Assembly (NCBI GenBank): GCA_017889545.1
Contig: JAGFZV010000003.1
Coordinates: 124,001 to 188,000, forward strand
Reading direction: 5' to 3'
Length of the DNA: 64,000 nucleotides
Source of the DNA: Bacillota bacterium
GTDB taxonomy: Bacteria > Bacillota > Negativicutes > CTSoil-072
This document shows positions 11,167 to 21,326 of this stretch, piece after piece. Under the pieces are notes generated by a model. The model was not told where the DNA came from. It made no database searches and was given only the letters and a program-made list of their open reading frames with translations. Positions within the stretch are counted from its first letter, which is position 1; every line of letters begins with the position of its first letter. The position numbers and the translations under genes were made by a program.

Positions 11167-11847
11167 TTAATCATTGCCGATATCATTGAGATAGTAGGCA
11201 GCGGAGATGAATGGCATGATATCGCGCGCAAAATCGATGCGGCCGTTATCCGCCAGATATACCACATCGCCGTCTGACAGGAGGACATTCTGGCTCAAAT
11301 CGCCTTTTTTCAAAATTGAGTCATAGTTGGCTTTGATAGGCGCATTGCTCTGGCCGCGCCGGATAATAAAGACTTTTTTCTTGGCGGCGTTTTTCGTGTG
11401 GCCGCCGGCAATCCCGATGGCATCGAGCAGATTGTGCTGGCGCTCGATTTCATACAGGCCCGGACGGACCACTTCGCCGAGCACATACACACGGGTCGTA
11501 TGGAATTTCAAGACGTTGACCGTCACCTTCGGATTGTGGATGTATTCGCTCACACCCCTAGTGATGGCATCGGTCAAGGCCGGTACAGTCAGGCCGCCCG
11601 CGACAATTTCACCGACCAGCGGAAAAGACAGCTTGCCGTCCGGACGAACCACGATGCCGTTAGCGTTTTGGGGCTTGAATTCCTCAAAACCCCAGACTTC
11701 CACGTTCAGGATGTCGCCCGGCGCCAGCGTATACTCTCCGCCGGCAGTTTGGACGGCCGGCAATGGCGCAGGCTGGGCCTGAACAACCCCACCGGCTGCC
11801 AGAATAGTGAACAGTGTAAAAATAAGAGCTAGGATTCTTTTTTTCAT
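11167..11847 (-). CDS. Wza-like polysaccharide export protein (Poly_export/SLBB)
   Basis: 226 aa. Residues 1-24 form a signal peptide ending near VQAQ. 'YTLAPGDILNVEVWG' opens the Poly_export domain; 'VYVLGEVVRPGLYEI' and 'LLDAIGIAGGHTKNA' form an SLBB domain. There is no lipobox Cys and no clear C-terminal helix, so it is shorter than Wza (about 380 aa), as in many Negativicutes. It forms or contacts the outer-membrane channel, which implies a diderm envelope. Preceded by its own promoter, a roughly 235-nt structured leader and a terminator (11902-11929), so its expression is probably regulated separately from the phosphatase gene. Confidence 0.9.
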   Translation of the reverse strand: MKKRILALIFTLFTILAAGGVVQAQPAPLPAVQTAGGEYTLAPGDILNVEVWGFEEFKPQNANGIVVRPDGKLSFPLVGEIVAGGLTVPALTDAITRGVSEYIHNPKVTVNVLKFHTTRVYVLGEVVRPGLYEIERQHNLLDAIGIAGGHTKNAAKKKVFIIRRGQSNAPIKANYDSILKKGDLSQNVLLSDGDVVYLADNGRIDFARDIMPFISAAYYLNDIGND

Positions 11848-11901
11848 TAAGCAGCCTCCTGTGAATCGTATCCATTAATTCCTCTATTTGCTATATAGAA
11901 A

Positions 11902-11929
11902 AGCAAAAACCGCCCCATAAAGAGCGGCA
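11902..11929 (-). terminator. Rho-independent terminator in the leader of the export gene
   Basis: On the minus strand a CCGCTC/GGGCGG stem with a 5-nt loop is followed by TTTTTGCTTTT. It lies 55 bases upstream of the export gene start, so it can act as an attenuator as well as ending the phosphatase transcript. Confidence 0.75.
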
Positions 11930-12082
11930 AAAAAATTCAAACAGACGTGCATTGCATCGATTCAATTGGTTATGGTCCTTGCAAAATACAGTTCCCACAA
12001 ACAACATCAAGGCTTCCGTGCCACCCGCTTACAACCACTCCGGAATCAAAGCAACGATGCTGGTGCATAAATTGCTTCAACA
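11930..12082 (-). promoter_or_regulatory. Structured 5' leader of the export gene, unassigned regulatory RNA
   Basis: From the predicted transcription start near 12082 the RNA first forms a hairpin (AAGCAA...TTGCTT with inner ATGC/GCAT), then a TTCCG/CGGAA-closed stem enclosing a G-rich segment with GCGGGTGGCACGG, then runs into the terminator at 11902. A structured leader plus terminator is the layout of an attenuator or riboswitch. The GGGTGGCAC string recalls the T-box antiterminator, but there is no room or sequence for a T-box stem I. It is not a second c-di-GMP-I aptamer. Class unknown. Confidence 0.45.
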
Positions 12083-12088
12083 TTGTAT

Positions 12089-12117
12089 ATTGTATGTCTT
12101 TTCATACACATTGTAAA
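12089..12117 (-). promoter_or_regulatory. Sigma-A-type promoter for the export/Wzz/kinase genes
   Basis: TTTACA (12112-12117), a 17-base spacer and TACAAT (12089-12094) on the minus strand, in the gap after the phosphatase gene. Predicted start of transcription near 12082. Confidence 0.65.
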
Positions 12118-12204: not shown

Positions 12205-12996
12205 TTAGCCCCATATTCGTTTCTTGATATTGCGCAGAAAACTGCGGCGCGGGGATTGGATTTGCTCCGGTACGGTGATGTCCAGTCTGCGCCCTTGCAG
12301 GATGGTCTTGGGGTTGACGATGAGGATTTGGTGCGCCCGTTCCGCACCAACCAGTTCGGTGATGCGCTGCGCGGCCCGGTCGAGTTTGGGCCGCCGGAAG
12401 TTGAGGCCGTGTCCGTCGGAGCCGACGACATGAACCAGATTGTTGGACAGCAGCAGCTCTGCCGCCGCCTTAGTTTTTTCGCCCATCCGGCCGGTCAGGC
12501 TGGGGGCGTTCATCTGCACCAATGTTCCTTTGCGGACCCATTCGAGCAGGAGTTCCGGTTTGCGGGCGATTTCCGGGTGGCGTTCGGCATGGGCGATGAT
12601 CGGGGTAATGCCGCGCGTCTGCAAGACAAATAAAAATTCGTCGATGAACGGGGGAACGTGGGTCGCCGGCAACTCGACCAGAGCATACTTGCCTCCATTC
12701 AGGCAATAGGGTCCCGGGCCTTTCAGCCGCTCCAGGTTGTCGTAATGGATGGCAATTTCCGCGCCGGGGTACAAGGTGAGCGGAATATTGTGCTCCTGCG
12801 CTGCGGCTTGCAGACGATGACAGGCGGCGACAATGCGCTCCCAGTCCGGCAGCCACTCCCCTTCAATAACATGGGGCGTCAGGGCGATATTCTTGGTGCC
12901 GTGCTCCGCCGCCATGCGGAGCATCAGCAAAGAGGTTTCCAGATCCTTGGCGCCGTCGTCAATTCCCGGCAGGATATGCGTATGAAGGTCAAACAT
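12205..12996 (-). CDS. CpsB/YwqE-type PHP tyrosine-protein phosphatase
   Basis: Start at the ATG at 12996 (AAAGGA 8 bases upstream), giving 263 aa; nine further in-frame codons upstream lack a ribosome-binding site. The N-terminal 'DLHTHILPGIDDGA' carries the HxH metal-binding motif of the PHP fold; further His residues appear in 'LTPHV', 'AHAERHPEIA' and 'SDGHGLNFRRP'. This metal-dependent family dephosphorylates the tyrosine cluster of the BY-kinase and so regulates polysaccharide production. It is the first gene behind the c-di-GMP riboswitch, so the second messenger would act on the phosphatase directly and on downstream genes by read-through. Confidence 0.9.
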   Translation of the reverse strand: MFDLHTHILPGIDDGAKDLETSLLMLRMAAEHGTKNIALTPHVIEGEWLPDWERIVAACHRLQAAAQEHNIPLTLYPGAEIAIHYDNLERLKGPGPYCLNGGKYALVELPATHVPPFIDEFLFVLQTRGITPIIAHAERHPEIARKPELLLEWVRKGTLVQMNAPSLTGRMGEKTKAAAELLLSNNLVHVVGSDGHGLNFRRPKLDRAAQRITELVGAERAHQILIVNPKTILQGRRLDITVPEQIQSPRRSFLRNIKKRIWG

Positions 12997-13035
12997 GCTC
13001 CCATTCCTTTCTGAACGCTGCAAAAATATTACAGA

Positions 13036-13089: not shown

Positions 13090-13175
13090 GTGTGCGGCCT
13101 GGCGATCATAGGCACGTGCCGTTAGACCCATAGCTTTGCGCCTCTATCTTTCAATAGATTTGCCAAACGTCAATA
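13090..13175 (-). promoter_or_regulatory. Cyclic di-GMP-I (GEMM) riboswitch aptamer
   Basis: Read on the minus strand: a GGCAAA entry, a hairpin of TCTAT/ATAGA capped by a GAAA tetraloop, then GGCGCAAAGC, TATGGGTC, TAA and a second helix ending in GATCGCCAGGCC. This order, including the tetraloop and the invariant CGCAAAGC segment, matches the c-di-GMP-I class. It lies about 30 nt after the predicted transcription start and is followed by a terminator, so binding is expected to switch transcription of the polysaccharide genes. Whether the ligand turns expression on or off cannot be read with certainty. Confidence 0.9.
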
Positions 13176-15415: not shown

Positions 15416-18079
15416 TCACTCTTCAAACACGGCGCTCACAGGCAAAGCCAGAACGTTCATAAGCTTGCTGTCGTGCATTTTCATTCGCCGTTTCAACGTG
15501 TTCCGGTCTTTGTCATGCTCTAAAATTCCTTCTGATGCCAATTGTTTCCAAAGGGTCCGTTGACCGACGGGGAAAACAAGACCCATGCCCGCATAATGAC
15601 GTTGAACCGCTTCAAAAACCGTGTTAGGCAGCAAGTACAGCATGTCCCCGTCCCGTTCCCCTATCGCGCCATTGCTAAGCGATTCAGTATCTTTACTGGC
15701 AACAAATACGTGTTTGGTAGCAATCAGCTCGTGCAATGCTGCCAAAAATTGTTCGACGGGCTTTTCTTGAGCTAGCCCTTTGATATTTTCCTCGGCCACT
15801 GCCATCAGTGCCAATTTCGCTTCCTCGAACAAGCGTGACGACTCTCCTTGTGCCAGGCATTGTCGTTCAACCATAAACTGCAAACCAAGTTTTACGCCTA
15901 ACAGCAATTTTGCTGTTGCCTTCCGCACACGACCACCTTCGATTGAGCCTGCCATTTCTTCTTCCAGCGCCCGATATTCATCAATGGCTTCGCTTTGTAA
16001 CCGCTCCCAGTTATCGGACAACCACACTAGATAATTCTGCATCCATACTCTGAGCAAATGCTTTTTGCGCCGAAGGGGTTGCAACTTTTCGTCATAAAAA
16101 ACATCCTCGCGTGTCACATCCAAAAAGACAACGCGAGCTTGTCCTGATTCCCCAATATCGGGTTTTTCTTCGCCCGTGCATATCGACAATCCACGCGGCG
16201 TATACCCTCGCCTTACGCTCATATCGGAACGCATCCTAATTCTGGCTGCTCCGTCACCATAAGCTCGGGAAAGGGCCTGCGCAGCGCTTTTCAAGTTTTC
16301 GCGCTCCCGCCGTGTTTGTGCCGGGTAAAAATCATCGACTACAAGTAATGAGTCCTTAAGGGTGAATGCCATCTTCTCGAGGCTGTTTACCGTCTGCCGG
16401 AAATTGGCCGGGAAATCGGTAGTGTCATATTCTCCGAAAAAATTCAATGCCAGTGCTGCCATTGACGACTTGCCCGAAGCTGTCCGCCCAACAAGGAACA
16501 ATGAAAAGTCCAATGGTACCGATTTTTTGAGCATTTCACGGCAAGGTGCAAGCGCCACGGCGCCAAACAGGGAAAATGCTATTTTCGGAACGGCCACACC
16601 CATAAACTCAATTGCAGCATCAGCCGCTTCCTTAAAGCTTCCCTCTGCAGCTAAACTATAACGCTGCAACGATTCACCACTGCCCATCAAATCGACCGCA
16701 ACACATTTAGCTCCGATCGCGCCACCAGCGTGTAAGTAGGCCCAACGCCCGGCAATTTTACGCCATCCCGTATGAGTATAAACGGTTCTTTCTTCAATAC
16801 CTTGTGCCAAGTATTGAAACGCCGCTCGAAGCTGATCCTTGCGCCCTTGCCCTGGTTGTATTATGGCATGAATGCCCAACTTGTTCACAACCCAATTCAG
16901 CGCTGCCAATTCTTCCGAAGATACCGCCACCTCGGGTAACGACTGGCCGCTGGCCAGACGACAACGAAACTTATACTGCCTCCGTTGCCCATCTCCATCG
17001 TCAAGCGCTTCCTCCAGGACCGGCCAGGCGACAAAATTACAAAGTCTGACTAACTGCTCGCCCTCCTGTGTTACTTTCACTTGACAAAGAGCGCCTTTCT
17101 CAATGGCAAACCCGGTCCCCGCGAGCTTTTCTTTAAGCTTATCTAGCAAATCCGCATCCGGTTCGGCCGTTGGTTCCCATAAAACTGTTCGTTCTGCCAA
17201 TAACCGCAACTCGTCCGCTGTATGCTCGGCAGCAAGCCAGTCTGCAACATCCGCTTTGTTGTCCGGCCCTGATAAGCCTTTGACTGTCAACTGATCAAGA
17301 TCCGGCAGCCTTACGATTCTAACACTACAGCCTTTTGCATGAAGTTTATATGCCACCTGTTCAGCGTGTTCACGGCCAATTTTGTCATTGTCCGGCAAGA
17401 TCACTATGCTTGCGCCGATAGGTACGCACTCCGTATCCGCTTCTTGCCACTTTTTCGCACCATTCGCATTTGTGGTGGAAGGCAGGCCCACAGCGGCCAA
17501 AGCATCCGCGCACTTTTCACCTTCCGCCACAAAAATTGTCTGCCCATTTTTTATCGCTTGCAGTACATCAGGCAAGCGGTAGAGAACACGGCGAACGTTT
17601 TTAACGCCCTTGGTCCAACCACCTGCCTCCGTTGCCTGTTCCATGGAAAAGGTTTTGCTGCCATCTTGCTTGCAGGTCCTTACCGATCGAAAGAGAGGCT
17701 TACCTGTTTCATCAGTGTAAACATAACTTACCATATCAGGCGGCTGCACGCCCCGCAGTACAACGTCCGAGACAGCGTTCGCTTCTTTGTTCCGCCGTCC
17801 CAACCCAAAGCGATTTACCAGTAACCTTACTGCTTCCTTGTTGGTAATCCCATTTGCAGCGGCAAACACATTGATGGCATCCCCTCCTTGGTTGCATGAA
17901 TAGCAGAAAACTCGGTTTTTGGCTTCATAAACGTGCATTGACGGGTTACTTTCACAATGGAACACGCAAAGCGCTTTATGTTCCCGGTTAATATCGCGGC
18001 CAGCTTCACGGAGCGCGTCTAAAATCGAATACTTTTCCTTAATTGCCCGAATGACATCATCGTCGTCCATCGCGTTCAT
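15416..18079 (-). CDS. Primase-helicase with CHC2 zinc finger, Toprim-like and DUF927 domains
   Basis: 887 aa. A CHC2 zinc finger is at the N-terminus (C38-x2-H41 ... C59-x2-C62), a Toprim-like core follows ('IFVAEGEKCADAL' near 180), and the C-terminal half is a DUF927-type ATPase with P-loop 'LVGRTASGKSS' near 535 and acidic 'LLVVDDFYP' near 580. This fusion makes primers and unwinds DNA for autonomous replication of phages, plasmids and satellites. Its ATG overlaps the stop of the upstream HTH gene (ATGA), so translation is coupled. Repeats likely to be its origin follow the stop codon. Confidence 0.9.
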   Translation of the reverse strand: MNAMDDDDVIRAIKEKYSILDALREAGRDINREHKALCVFHCESNPSMHVYEAKNRVFCYSCNQGGDAINVFAAANGITNKEAVRLLVNRFGLGRRNKEANAVSDVVLRGVQPPDMVSYVYTDETGKPLFRSVRTCKQDGSKTFSMEQATEAGGWTKGVKNVRRVLYRLPDVLQAIKNGQTIFVAEGEKCADALAAVGLPSTTNANGAKKWQEADTECVPIGASIVILPDNDKIGREHAEQVAYKLHAKGCSVRIVRLPDLDQLTVKGLSGPDNKADVADWLAAEHTADELRLLAERTVLWEPTAEPDADLLDKLKEKLAGTGFAIEKGALCQVKVTQEGEQLVRLCNFVAWPVLEEALDDGDGQRRQYKFRCRLASGQSLPEVAVSSEELAALNWVVNKLGIHAIIQPGQGRKDQLRAAFQYLAQGIEERTVYTHTGWRKIAGRWAYLHAGGAIGAKCVAVDLMGSGESLQRYSLAAEGSFKEAADAAIEFMGVAVPKIAFSLFGAVALAPCREMLKKSVPLDFSLFLVGRTASGKSSMAALALNFFGEYDTTDFPANFRQTVNSLEKMAFTLKDSLLVVDDFYPAQTRRERENLKSAAQALSRAYGDGAARIRMRSDMSVRRGYTPRGLSICTGEEKPDIGESGQARVVFLDVTREDVFYDEKLQPLRRKKHLLRVWMQNYLVWLSDNWERLQSEAIDEYRALEEEMAGSIEGGRVRKATAKLLLGVKLGLQFMVERQCLAQGESSRLFEEAKLALMAVAEENIKGLAQEKPVEQFLAALHELIATKHVFVASKDTESLSNGAIGERDGDMLYLLPNTVFEAVQRHYAGMGLVFPVGQRTLWKQLASEGILEHDKDRNTLKRRMKMHDSKLMNVLALPVSAVFEE

Positions 18080-18324
18080 CGTCGCACCTCGCGAATCTTG
18101 CCAAAACCTACAACATTATTCGCAGCACTAGTGGAAGCCGTCTCTCGCTCTTTCCACCATTGTTCTACGGCTTCCAAGCGATATCGAACTCGATTACCAG
18201 CCCATACATGGGGCAATCCATCACGCAATCTCATTAATCTGACAGTTGAAGGTTTAAGGTTCCAGATTTCAGCAAGCTGCTTTTCACTTACGGTTTTCAT
18301 TGAAACGACGTTTTCCGTTTTCAC
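18076..18324 (-). CDS. Helix-turn-helix DNA-binding protein (AlpA/Xis-like)
   Basis: 82 aa, GTG start at 18324 with GGAGGG 8 bases upstream. Residues 12-60 form a winged-helix/MerR-like HTH: 'SEKQLAEIWNLKPSTVRLMRLRDGLPHVWAGNRVRYRLEAVEQWW', the AlpA/excisionase fold in which 'RYR...V..W' marks the wing and C-terminal helix. It overlaps the primase start by 4 bp and follows another HTH gene by 4 bp. It likely regulates the replication module or directs excision; which of the two HTH proteins is the excisionase cannot be told. Confidence 0.8.
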   Translation of the reverse strand: MKTENVVSMKTVSEKQLAEIWNLKPSTVRLMRLRDGLPHVWAGNRVRYRLEAVEQWWKERETASTSAANNVVGFGKIREVRR

Positions 18325-18328
18325 AGGT

Positions 18329-18520
18329 TCATCCCTCCTTCCCGCTTAACAATTTTTCAAGTCCAACCATTGGAACAAGCAAACGTCGCTCGCCTAATTT
18401 AATCGTAGGCAGTTTTCCTTCTTTGGCCATTTGATATGACAGGCTTCGTGAAATGCCAAGTAGTTGGCCAGCCGTTTCAATCGTTACTGCCATTGGTTTG
18501 TCTATTTGGCGTCTTGTCAT
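18329..18520 (-). CDS. Excisionase-family HTH protein
   Basis: 63 aa with 'MAVTIETAGQLLGISRSLSYQMAKEGKLPTIKLGERRLLVP', the classic excisionase/helix-turn-helix_17 profile: an HTH, then a G-x-R-wing. It is the first gene of the leftward unit, starting beside the divergent palindrome at 18545. Expected to bind att-region arm sites to direct excision by the integrase, or to act as early regulator of the element. Confidence 0.85.
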   Translation of the reverse strand: MTRRQIDKPMAVTIETAGQLLGISRSLSYQMAKEGKLPTIKLGERRLLVPMVGLEKLLSGKEG

Positions 18521-18544
18521 AATAACCCCTCCATGATATTATTG

Positions 18545-18574
18545 TGTTATGTACTATTGTGTACATAATAACAT
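18545..18574. promoter_or_regulatory. Operator-like inverted repeat in the divergent promoter region
   Basis: TGTTATGTAC and GTACATAATAACA are near-complementary (a 3-base insertion in the right arm) around TATTGT. It lies in the 114-bp gap between the leftward HTH genes and the rightward zinc-finger gene, the place where a satellite master repressor would bind. Confidence 0.6.
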
Positions 18575-18634
18575 GTCTTTTCGTAGCATATAAGTGTTAT
18601 ATTTGGGTTACGCATAAAAATAATGAGGTGCATT

Positions 18635-19687
18635 ATGTTGAAATTAGATTTTATTGGTGGTTCTTGGTTAAGAATTAAAAATTTTGATGTATATAACAAT
18701 ATCGTTTGCATTTCTGAAAAATCAGTTATTGAAGAATATGATCCTATTTATTATTACAACAATCCAATTCCACCGGATATCATAAATGAAATACTAGGAG
18801 ATTCGGTCAACACGCAACAGTATATTTTTATTCATAACCTTTTTTTATCGCTTGACTATAAAAATACTGAACAATTATTAAGATGGATTGAGCGTTTTGG
18901 AACATTGAATAGATTTGCAAAAGATGACTCTGAGGATGATTATATATCGCCGTCAACCGAACCATTATTCGATGAATTACCCGAGAACCTAATTAATGAA
19001 GATGGAGAATTACTAAACCCCTCCTTAAAGCCAGTAAGTAGCTTGATCGAATTTAAAGAAGAAATCTCCATAATGAAATTTATTGTAAATGCAGTAAATA
19101 TTATTAAAAATAAGTATCAAGGTATTGAAGCATTTACCAATGATTATTTATCAAACGTTGAATTAATTGAAACCTTATATTACTATGGTTTTTTTGATTT
19201 TTTATATGAAAAAGTTCCTAACCTTCCAAGTGCATCTTTTTCACCAGATGTTTCGACGTACGATAAAATACAGACAGAACTCCCAAACGCCAATTATGTG
19301 AAAGATATTGAACCAATTTTCAATGCCTTCAGAAGGTGTAAACTAAGGAATTTTGCAAAGATAGCTTCAAAACAACTTGGCAACCAATTTCTAGACCAGA
19401 TAGTCGAATGCTTTTTTTCAATAAAACTTTCTGCCATTTCACCTGAGATAAAGATTAATAACGGGAAAATATCTTTTAATTTTAGTAATAATTCTTTAAT
19501 TGGATTAATATATTTTTTCCTTTCTTTAGACATTGCTGGCGATATCATCCCACGCAAATGCTCCGCCAAAGGTTGTAATCGGCATTTCATACCAACAAGA
19601 GAAGATGCAATATATTGCTCTGATACCTGTAAAAACCGTGCAAAACAGCAGCGACACCGTGACAAGAAAAAAAGAACAATTAGATAA
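18635..19687 (+). CDS. Protein with C-terminal CGNR-like zinc finger, function unknown
   Basis: Start at the ATG at 18635 (GAGGTG 5-6 bases upstream) rather than the in-frame ATG at 18623; 350 aa. Residues 1-300 are AT-rich-coded and unrecognised, mostly helical and acidic. The C-terminus has 'CSAKGCNRHFIPTREDAIYCSDTCKNRAKQQRHRDKKK' (two halves: CxxxxC, then CSxxCxNRAK), matching the CGNR/DUF6076-type finger that often ends in a basic tail. It sits between the operator and the integrase, in the slot of a satellite repressor, but has no HTH. It may be a regulator or a cargo (defence-type) gene. Confidence 0.75.
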   Translation: MLKLDFIGGSWLRIKNFDVYNNIVCISEKSVIEEYDPIYYYNNPIPPDIINEILGDSVNTQQYIFIHNLFLSLDYKNTEQLLRWIERFGTLNRFAKDDSEDDYISPSTEPLFDELPENLINEDGELLNPSLKPVSSLIEFKEEISIMKFIVNAVNIIKNKYQGIEAFTNDYLSNVELIETLYYYGFFDFLYEKVPNLPSASFSPDVSTYDKIQTELPNANYVKDIEPIFNAFRRCKLRNFAKIASKQLGNQFLDQIVECFFSIKLSAISPEIKINNGKISFNFSNNSLIGLIYFFLSLDIAGDIIPRKCSAKGCNRHFIPTREDAIYCSDTCKNRAKQQRHRDKKKRTIR

Positions 19688-19709
19688 CGAATGAAAGCAT
19701 TTTGACAAC

Positions 19710-19732
19710 TTGTTCCCATTTTTGTTACCGTT
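19710..19732 (+). repeat. Second site of the primase-end repeat, upstream of the integrase
   Basis: 23 bp matching the minus strand of 15386-15408 at 20 positions. Another TGTTCCCG lies at about 19819. Located in the 191-bp gap before the integrase gene, which holds no other recognised feature. Confidence 0.6.
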
Positions 19733-19878
19733 AAATTGCCAATGTTTCCGATAAAAATCAGGTAGTTGGAACAAGAAAAGTTAGCAATACCAACGCTTTC
19801 AAAAGTTTGTTCTCGATGTTCCCGGTATTTGTCCATCAGAGAGTCTCTACGTTTTTTTATGAAGGAAGGTGAAGGATT

Positions 19879-21123
19879 ATGCCCGCGAAAGTAGCCCAGA
19901 TCAGCGCTACAACTTGGCGTCTAACCGTGTCAGATGGATACGACCAACTAGGCAAGCAAGTGCTCCATCGAAAGGTAGTGGAGGCCACCAGCAAACGTCA
20001 AGCCGATAAGTTTTGGACTCTGTACGCTGCCGAAATAGCCAACGGCAAGAAAGCCAGCAGCGGAAAAATGACTTTATCCCAGTTCTATGCCTATTGGAAA
20101 AAGAATAACTTTGACGAAGAACGCCAAAAAACAACCCTTTCCCATTATGATTTCCTTTTCCGCCGCATTGAAACAGCACTAGGAGGGTTACGGCTAGATA
20201 AAATAGAGCCGCGCCATATTCTCGACTTCAAAGCCAATCTTGAGAAGGCCGGAATAAAGAATGATCCAAACGCCGGTCGCCGCAAGAAGCCCAAAGTGAA
20301 CACTCCTGGCGACCAAGATAAACTTTCCGGAAACACAGTCAAAAAGCATCTTACTCTTTTGGACAATATGTTTCACTCCGCAGTGAAATGGAACATGGCC
20401 AACACCAACCCATGCAAAAATATAACAATGCCAAAAGTAGATGCGAAAAAGCCGGATATATACGACCGCGACACACTGGGGCTCTTCTTATATCATCTAC
20501 AGAGCGAACCGATAAAATATCAAGTGATGGTATATCTTGCCCTTGCCGGGAGCTTAAGGCGTGAAGAAATATTCGGCCTCCGCACGCCTGATGACATCGA
20601 CCTCAAAGGCTGTACCGTCAGCATTGTCGAAGCGAACGTATATATTCCGGGTGAAATTGTAATAAAGCCCCCAAAAAACAAGAGCAGTGCTAGGCCAGTG
20701 AGCCTACCGCCTTCAACAATGGCACTCATCGAAGCTTATCAGGGCATCCGAAATGATCATAAGGCCAACGTTGGCGACGATGATTGGACCGAATCCGGCA
20801 AATTATTCACCCAATGGAACGGAACACCAGCCCACCCACATAGCTTCAACACATGGATTAAGAAGTTTTTAGTAAAACATGATCTACCGCACATAACGCC
20901 GCACACGCTACGCCATATGACAGGAACATATCTTTCTCTTGCTGGCACCGACCCAGCCACCATTGCCGCTAAAATGGGCCACGCCAAAATCACAACCACG
21001 CTAGGAACTTATGTTCATGCTGTTCCGGCAGCGGAAAAAGAAACCGCCAAGACCATAGACACCTATCTTCAGGGCGCTCTGAATGACGCCGAGAAAAAAG
21101 CAAAGAAGCGAGCTATAAATTAG
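19879..21123 (+). CDS. int: Tyrosine-type site-specific integrase
   Basis: 414 aa, ATG with GAAGGAAGGTGAAGG upstream. N-terminal arm-binding domain, then a SAM-like core-binding domain (about 60-175, 'MTLSQFYAYWKKNNF'), then the catalytic domain with Arg in 'GSLRREEIFGL', the HxxR pair 'HTLRH', a later 'MGH' His and the nucleophile Tyr in 'GTYVHA'. It recombines att sites for integration and excision. The gene ends 127 bp from the 3' end of tRNA-Ala, a typical target. Two 11-bp direct repeats after its stop codon may be arm sites. Confidence 0.95.
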   Translation: MPAKVAQISATTWRLTVSDGYDQLGKQVLHRKVVEATSKRQADKFWTLYAAEIANGKKASSGKMTLSQFYAYWKKNNFDEERQKTTLSHYDFLFRRIETALGGLRLDKIEPRHILDFKANLEKAGIKNDPNAGRRKKPKVNTPGDQDKLSGNTVKKHLTLLDNMFHSAVKWNMANTNPCKNITMPKVDAKKPDIYDRDTLGLFLYHLQSEPIKYQVMVYLALAGSLRREEIFGLRTPDDIDLKGCTVSIVEANVYIPGEIVIKPPKNKSSARPVSLPPSTMALIEAYQGIRNDHKANVGDDDWTESGKLFTQWNGTPAHPHSFNTWIKKFLVKHDLPHITPHTLRHMTGTYLSLAGTDPATIAAKMGHAKITTTLGTYVHAVPAAEKETAKTIDTYLQGALNDAEKKAKKRAIN

Positions 21124-21180
21124 CCCGCTTCTTCTTGTTTATTCACCATTATTTATGCTTATTTACTATCTCAAAAACTC

Positions 21181-21203
21181 AATAAGGCCATAAATAAGGC
21201 CAT
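21181..21203. repeat. Two copies of AATAAGGCCAT
   Basis: Direct repeats one base apart (21181-21191, 21193-21203) between the integrase stop and the tRNA terminator. Candidate integrase or excisionase arm-binding sites. Confidence 0.5.
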
Positions 21204-21206
21204 AAT

Positions 21207-21242
21207 ACAAAAATAAACGGGTCTGCATTTCTGCAAACCCGT
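21207..21242 (-). terminator. Terminator of the tRNA-Ala gene
   Basis: Stem ACGGGT-TGCA/TGCA-ACCCGT (one mismatch) at 21217-21242, followed on the minus strand by TTTATTTTTG. Placed 9 bases after the tRNA CCA end. Confidence 0.8.
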
Positions 21243-21250
21243 GTGTTTCC

Positions 21251-21326
<76 letters not shown>

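Follow-up and report, generated by a model that had tools for sequence, protein, structure and literature searches.

The DNA between the cpsB/ywqE-like gene and the wza-like gene was best explained as an ordinary intercistronic terminator or simple attenuator of the polysaccharide operon, with wza expressed by read-through. A probability of about 0.55 was assigned to this reading. Both genes lie on the minus strand of the window, i.e., the whole 64,000-nucleotide stretch that was analysed, and the gap between the end of cpsB/ywqE (12205) and the start of the wza-like gene (11847) is 357 bp. The features considered are listed below.

11167..11847, minus strand: wza-like polysaccharide export gene with Poly_export and SLBB domains (PF02563, E=1.8e-22; PF22461; PF10531)
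11901..11928, minus strand: intrinsic-terminator-like hairpin with a T-rich tail, stem 11928-11909, GCCGCTCTTTATGGGGCGGT-TTTTGCTTTT
11938..12031, minus strand: long irregular hairpin of the minimum-energy fold, pair probabilities about 0.5-0.7, overall no better than shuffles
12019..12026, minus strand: GGGUGGCA, candidate antiterminator strand inside the GCGGGTGGCACGG-bearing segment, pairing with the terminator 5' arm
12081..12045, minus strand: 5' hairpin with 11 pairs and an additional AUGC/GCAU stem inside, ACCA loop
12091-12108: exact palindrome TGTATG-N6-CATACA in the spacer region of the leader's promoter-like site
12117..12089, minus strand: promoter-like site TTTACA-17-TACAAT, 10/12 consensus bases, best of the scan
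12205..13023, minus strand: cpsB/ywqE-like gene upstream of the leader, CpsB/CapC-type phosphatase (CpsB_CapC, PF19567, E=5.6e-58)
15416-18079: primase/helicase-like ORF, named by eye
19879-21123: tyrosine-recombinase-like ORF, named by eye
21254-21326: tRNA gene, the apparent integration site of an element

The likely start of the cpsB/ywqE-like gene was the ATG at 12996, as judged by inspection. A c-di-GMP-I riboswitch was located before cpsB (window positions 13090-13174, minus strand, 61.3 bits), and a terminator-like hairpin (13063-13045) was situated downstream of this riboswitch and upstream of the gene. Beside the polysaccharide locus, window positions 15416-21326 looked as if the tRNA gene had served as the integration site of an element, with the gene names given by eye.

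The reading as a terminator or simple attenuator was supported by consensus sites for a promoter and a terminator, correctly ordered and on the proper strand, and by a terminator hairpin that was clearly better than shuffles. The terminator-like hairpin was found 61 nt upstream of the wza ATG, its local z value was -3.95 (1/300 shuffles), and its pair probability within the full leader was about 0.83. By sequence and energy, the leader has the terminator hairpin and U tract before the regulated gene that are expected of an intrinsic-terminator attenuator. The same reading was weakened by the frequency of terminator-like sites, which were as common in shuffles of the region (3.5 expected) as in the region itself (3 sites, no excess). 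Promoter-like sites numbered 8 in the region versus 3.1 +/- 1.9 in shuffles. The separate promoter and the terminator shortly before the export gene that the preliminary description had proposed were both recovered as promoter-like and terminator-like sites, on the minus strand. The palindrome in the promoter spacer was seen once in the window versus 0.13 expected with at most one mismatch allowed, and it is a possible operator.

The pairing that could compete with the terminator was evaluated by energy calculations. GGGUGGCA was predicted to form 8 pairs, two of them G-U, with UGCCGCUC in the terminator 5' arm (11929-11922), at -13.8 kcal/mol. This complementarity was equalled in 15/500 leader shuffles (p about 0.03, post hoc), which also weakens the terminator-attenuator reading. 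Forcing the helix made the structure less stable than the free ensemble by 5-7 kcal/mol, because the segment sits in the long irregular hairpin (12031-11938). In the predicted minimum-energy fold, this hairpin sequestered GGGUGGCA and left the terminator free. Given the cost of the antiterminator helix, the terminator would be the default state. The predicted pairing of GGGUGGCA with the terminator arm was the only non-trivial hint of attenuation.

From the sequence elements and predicted energies, which are what was observed, we infer a working promoter and terminator, a dependence of wza on read-through and a possible relevance of the alternative pairing. Polymerases that start at the 12117 promoter, together with those arriving on the c-di-GMP-I-controlled cpsB transcript, would meet the terminator at 11928-11909, and only those that read through would transcribe wza and the downstream genes. 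By default the terminator would act, and the weaker pairing of GGGUGGCA (12026-12019) with the terminator 5' arm could serve as an antiterminator. Across the 61 nt that separate the terminator from wza, no sigma-70 site scored above 7/12; hence, read-through would be the simplest source of wza mRNA. A promoter of another, non-sigma-70 type directly before wza may be an alternative source.

The fold of the leader was compared with shuffled sequences. The 5' hairpin had an energy of -13.3 kcal/mol and a z value of -2.7, and it was equalled in 4/300 shuffles. The segment with GCGGGTGGCACGG (11950-12040) formed no stable hairpin when folded alone (z +0.9). Of the two stable hairpins described earlier ahead of the terminator, one, the 5' hairpin, held up, whereas the GCGGGTGGCACGG segment by itself did not. 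Moreover, the stability of the leader as a whole was at chance level against dinucleotide shuffles, with z values of -0.86 and -0.73 in two runs. A leader peptide was considered and rejected: the 37-codon ORF from 12083 was no longer than chance (521/2000 shuffles), it begins at the predicted transcript end without space for a ribosome site, and it had no family match.

Homologues of the leader were sought at the class level, since the collection contained no second genome from this family or order. A nucleotide search of 380 class genomes returned only the window copy at a meaningful score. A covariance model, R1, spanning 12083-11960 with the terminator left out, matched only itself in the 380 genomes and 72 loci, and as a model built on one sequence it is weak. 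In the class searches, few candidates were scored per genome, and weak homologues may be missed. The wza upstream regions of relatives contained no leader homologue by blastn, nhmmer or the covariance model. Sequence searches of the organism's own genome, the class, plasmids and phages gave short matches only, and those inspected (L014, L015, L016 and plasmid hit H1) appeared to be coding sequence or chance matches. The GCGGGTGGCACGG segment had been called conserved-looking, an impression to which these searches of the class genomes and wza upstream regions lent no support. That no homologue turned up at class distance makes an old and widespread aptamer less likely; a lineage-specific aptamer may be compatible with this result. 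No stems kept among relatives were found, which weakens the riboswitch reading as far as class-level relatives can tell.

The corresponding gap in relatives had a layout of its own. The cpsB-wza gap was often several hundred bases long and commonly contained a promoter, a 65-70 codon gene of an uncharacterised family and, ahead of wza, a terminator, in sequence unrelated to the leader. Such a small-gene unit was present between cpsB and wza in L024, L025, L026, L028, L034, L038, L039, L042 and L052. Terminator-like hairpins were found about 60-175 nt upstream of wza, again with unrelated sequences, in L025, L026, L029, L033, L034, L038, L039, L041 and L046, an approximate count since the hairpin caller also picks up weak hairpins. 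Such recurrence of terminators with unrelated sequence would be expected if selection on the position were loose, rather than of a conserved aptamer, and it favours the terminator-attenuator reading. In our view, the order of promoter, short unit, terminator and wza is an intergenic arrangement that recurs, and it does not indicate homologues of the leader.

The small genes encode a protein family of 66-77 aa with the motif xGYHxxQIxxII...FAxKC, and they usually have a promoter and a terminator of their own. Members were found upstream of wza in L024, L025, L026, L027, L028, L033, L034, L038, L039, L040, L042, L044 and L052; alignment A1 had invariant Y19, Q23, L52, F58 and C62, and none of the 13 members matched Pfam. 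Copies also occurred elsewhere in many genomes, including that of the window (G000:C29:123639-123830).

The leader was also compared with known RNA classes. No Rfam 15 model reached its gathering score in the leader, and relaxing the cutoff to E<=10 added only eukaryotic families, matched by chance. The leader matched neither c-di-GMP-I nor c-di-GMP-II (RF01051, RF01786) nor the T-box (RF00230) at E<=10; the genome's 18 T-box matches were all elsewhere. The earlier statement that the leader fits neither c-di-GMP-I nor a T-box was borne out, and no other Rfam family gave a credible match either. A 6S RNA was likewise rejected: the leader had no RF00013 match, and the 6S gene lies on another contig (G000:C2:24826-25007, 99.8 bits).

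Other explanations were weighed against the terminator-attenuator reading. The region could encode an independent small RNA, some 175 nt long and bounded by the promoter and terminator found here, wza being transcribed from another promoter. The spacing of promoter and terminator, about 175 nt, and the lack of a significant ORF suit this possibility, but it is not 6S, it is not conserved and no good wza promoter follows the terminator; a small RNA was considered unlikely. It was held quite unlikely that the leader is an eroded remnant of the small-gene unit of relatives (promoter, protein of 65-70 aa, terminator). Nine relatives' loci hold that unit in the cpsB-wza slot, and the window retains the promoter and terminator in unchanged order; however, the small-protein profile gave no leader match at E<=10, and the genome's own copies are on other contigs.

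Decidedly unlikely was a leader of an undescribed class acting as a riboswitch or regulated attenuator, in which 12083-11930 would sense a ligand or bind a protein and so move GGGUGGCA from the sequestering hairpin into the antiterminator or back. In its favour, the leader precedes a gene whose pathway is elsewhere in this genome under c-di-GMP-I (cpsB) and tandem c-di-GMP-II (second wza) control, and mutually exclusive pairings are predicted. Against this stand the missing homologues in the class genomes and wza upstream regions, a leader fold at shuffle level, the energetic penalty of the antiterminator conformer and the lack of a credible Rfam match. The layout described earlier as a riboswitch or attenuator was thus upheld for its attenuator geometry (promoter, leader, terminator and arm-pairing segment) and not for a riboswitch, which found neither conservation nor a significant overall fold. 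The narrower proposal, a lineage-specific leader RNA that toggles GGGUGGCA in this way as a third RNA checkpoint besides c-di-GMP-I and tandem c-di-GMP-II, was judged improbable. A degenerate T-box or c-di-GMP aptamer was very improbable. The resemblance is short and was noted by eye: the GGGTGGCAC nine-mer equals the start of the T-box core with a terminator downstream, and GGCACGGAAGCC recalls the c-di-GMP-I core. However, inspected T-box cores of the genome run on ACC[AG]CG, whereas the leader runs on ACGGAAG; the conserved core GGTGGNACCRCG adjoins its terminator, whereas the leader has GGTGGCACGGAAG about 90 nt upstream and not feeding into the terminator. c-di-GMP-I/II riboswitches do occur in this genome, upstream of the adjacent cpsB and of the second wza, but the leader itself has no match to either.

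Two protein-dependent or operon-level systems offered partial likenesses. LoaP-type leaders (dfn/mln) are similar in placing a hairpin ahead of an intrinsic terminator within a biosynthetic-operon leader, and LoaP/RfaH-type antitermination requires a specialised NusG paralogue and, for LoaP, a UNCG-loop hairpin (PMC12691694). The 5' hairpin here has an ACCA loop instead, and only one NusG-domain protein was found in the genome (assembly 96% complete); therefore, this type of antitermination is without a visible actor. Attenuators and intercistronic terminators of capsule and exopolysaccharide operons share a terminator between promoter and export gene, with a candidate competing pairing here, but the leader here is without a demonstrated sensor or antiterminator protein.

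A search of the genome contigs with the Wza protein gave three loci. Directly upstream of the second wza-like gene (ATG 1420), tandem c-di-GMP-II riboswitches were found at 1108-1191 and 1261-1344 of L007 (G000:C23). Each was accompanied by a terminator-like hairpin. The 5' arm of this hairpin overlaps the aptamer closing stem on its 3' strand, which suggests that both may be ON switches. Together with the window, the genome has c-di-GMP riboswitches at each of its two polysaccharide loci, c-di-GMP-I at one and tandem c-di-GMP-II at the other.

By itself, the leader has little significance, as a plausible terminator or simple attenuator of one polysaccharide operon from an isolated lineage. 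The interest lies in its surroundings, namely the small transcription unit and terminator that relatives repeatedly carry before wza and the c-di-GMP riboswitches at both loci. Given closer genomes, the cpsB-wza gap would be a sensible place to seek further control.
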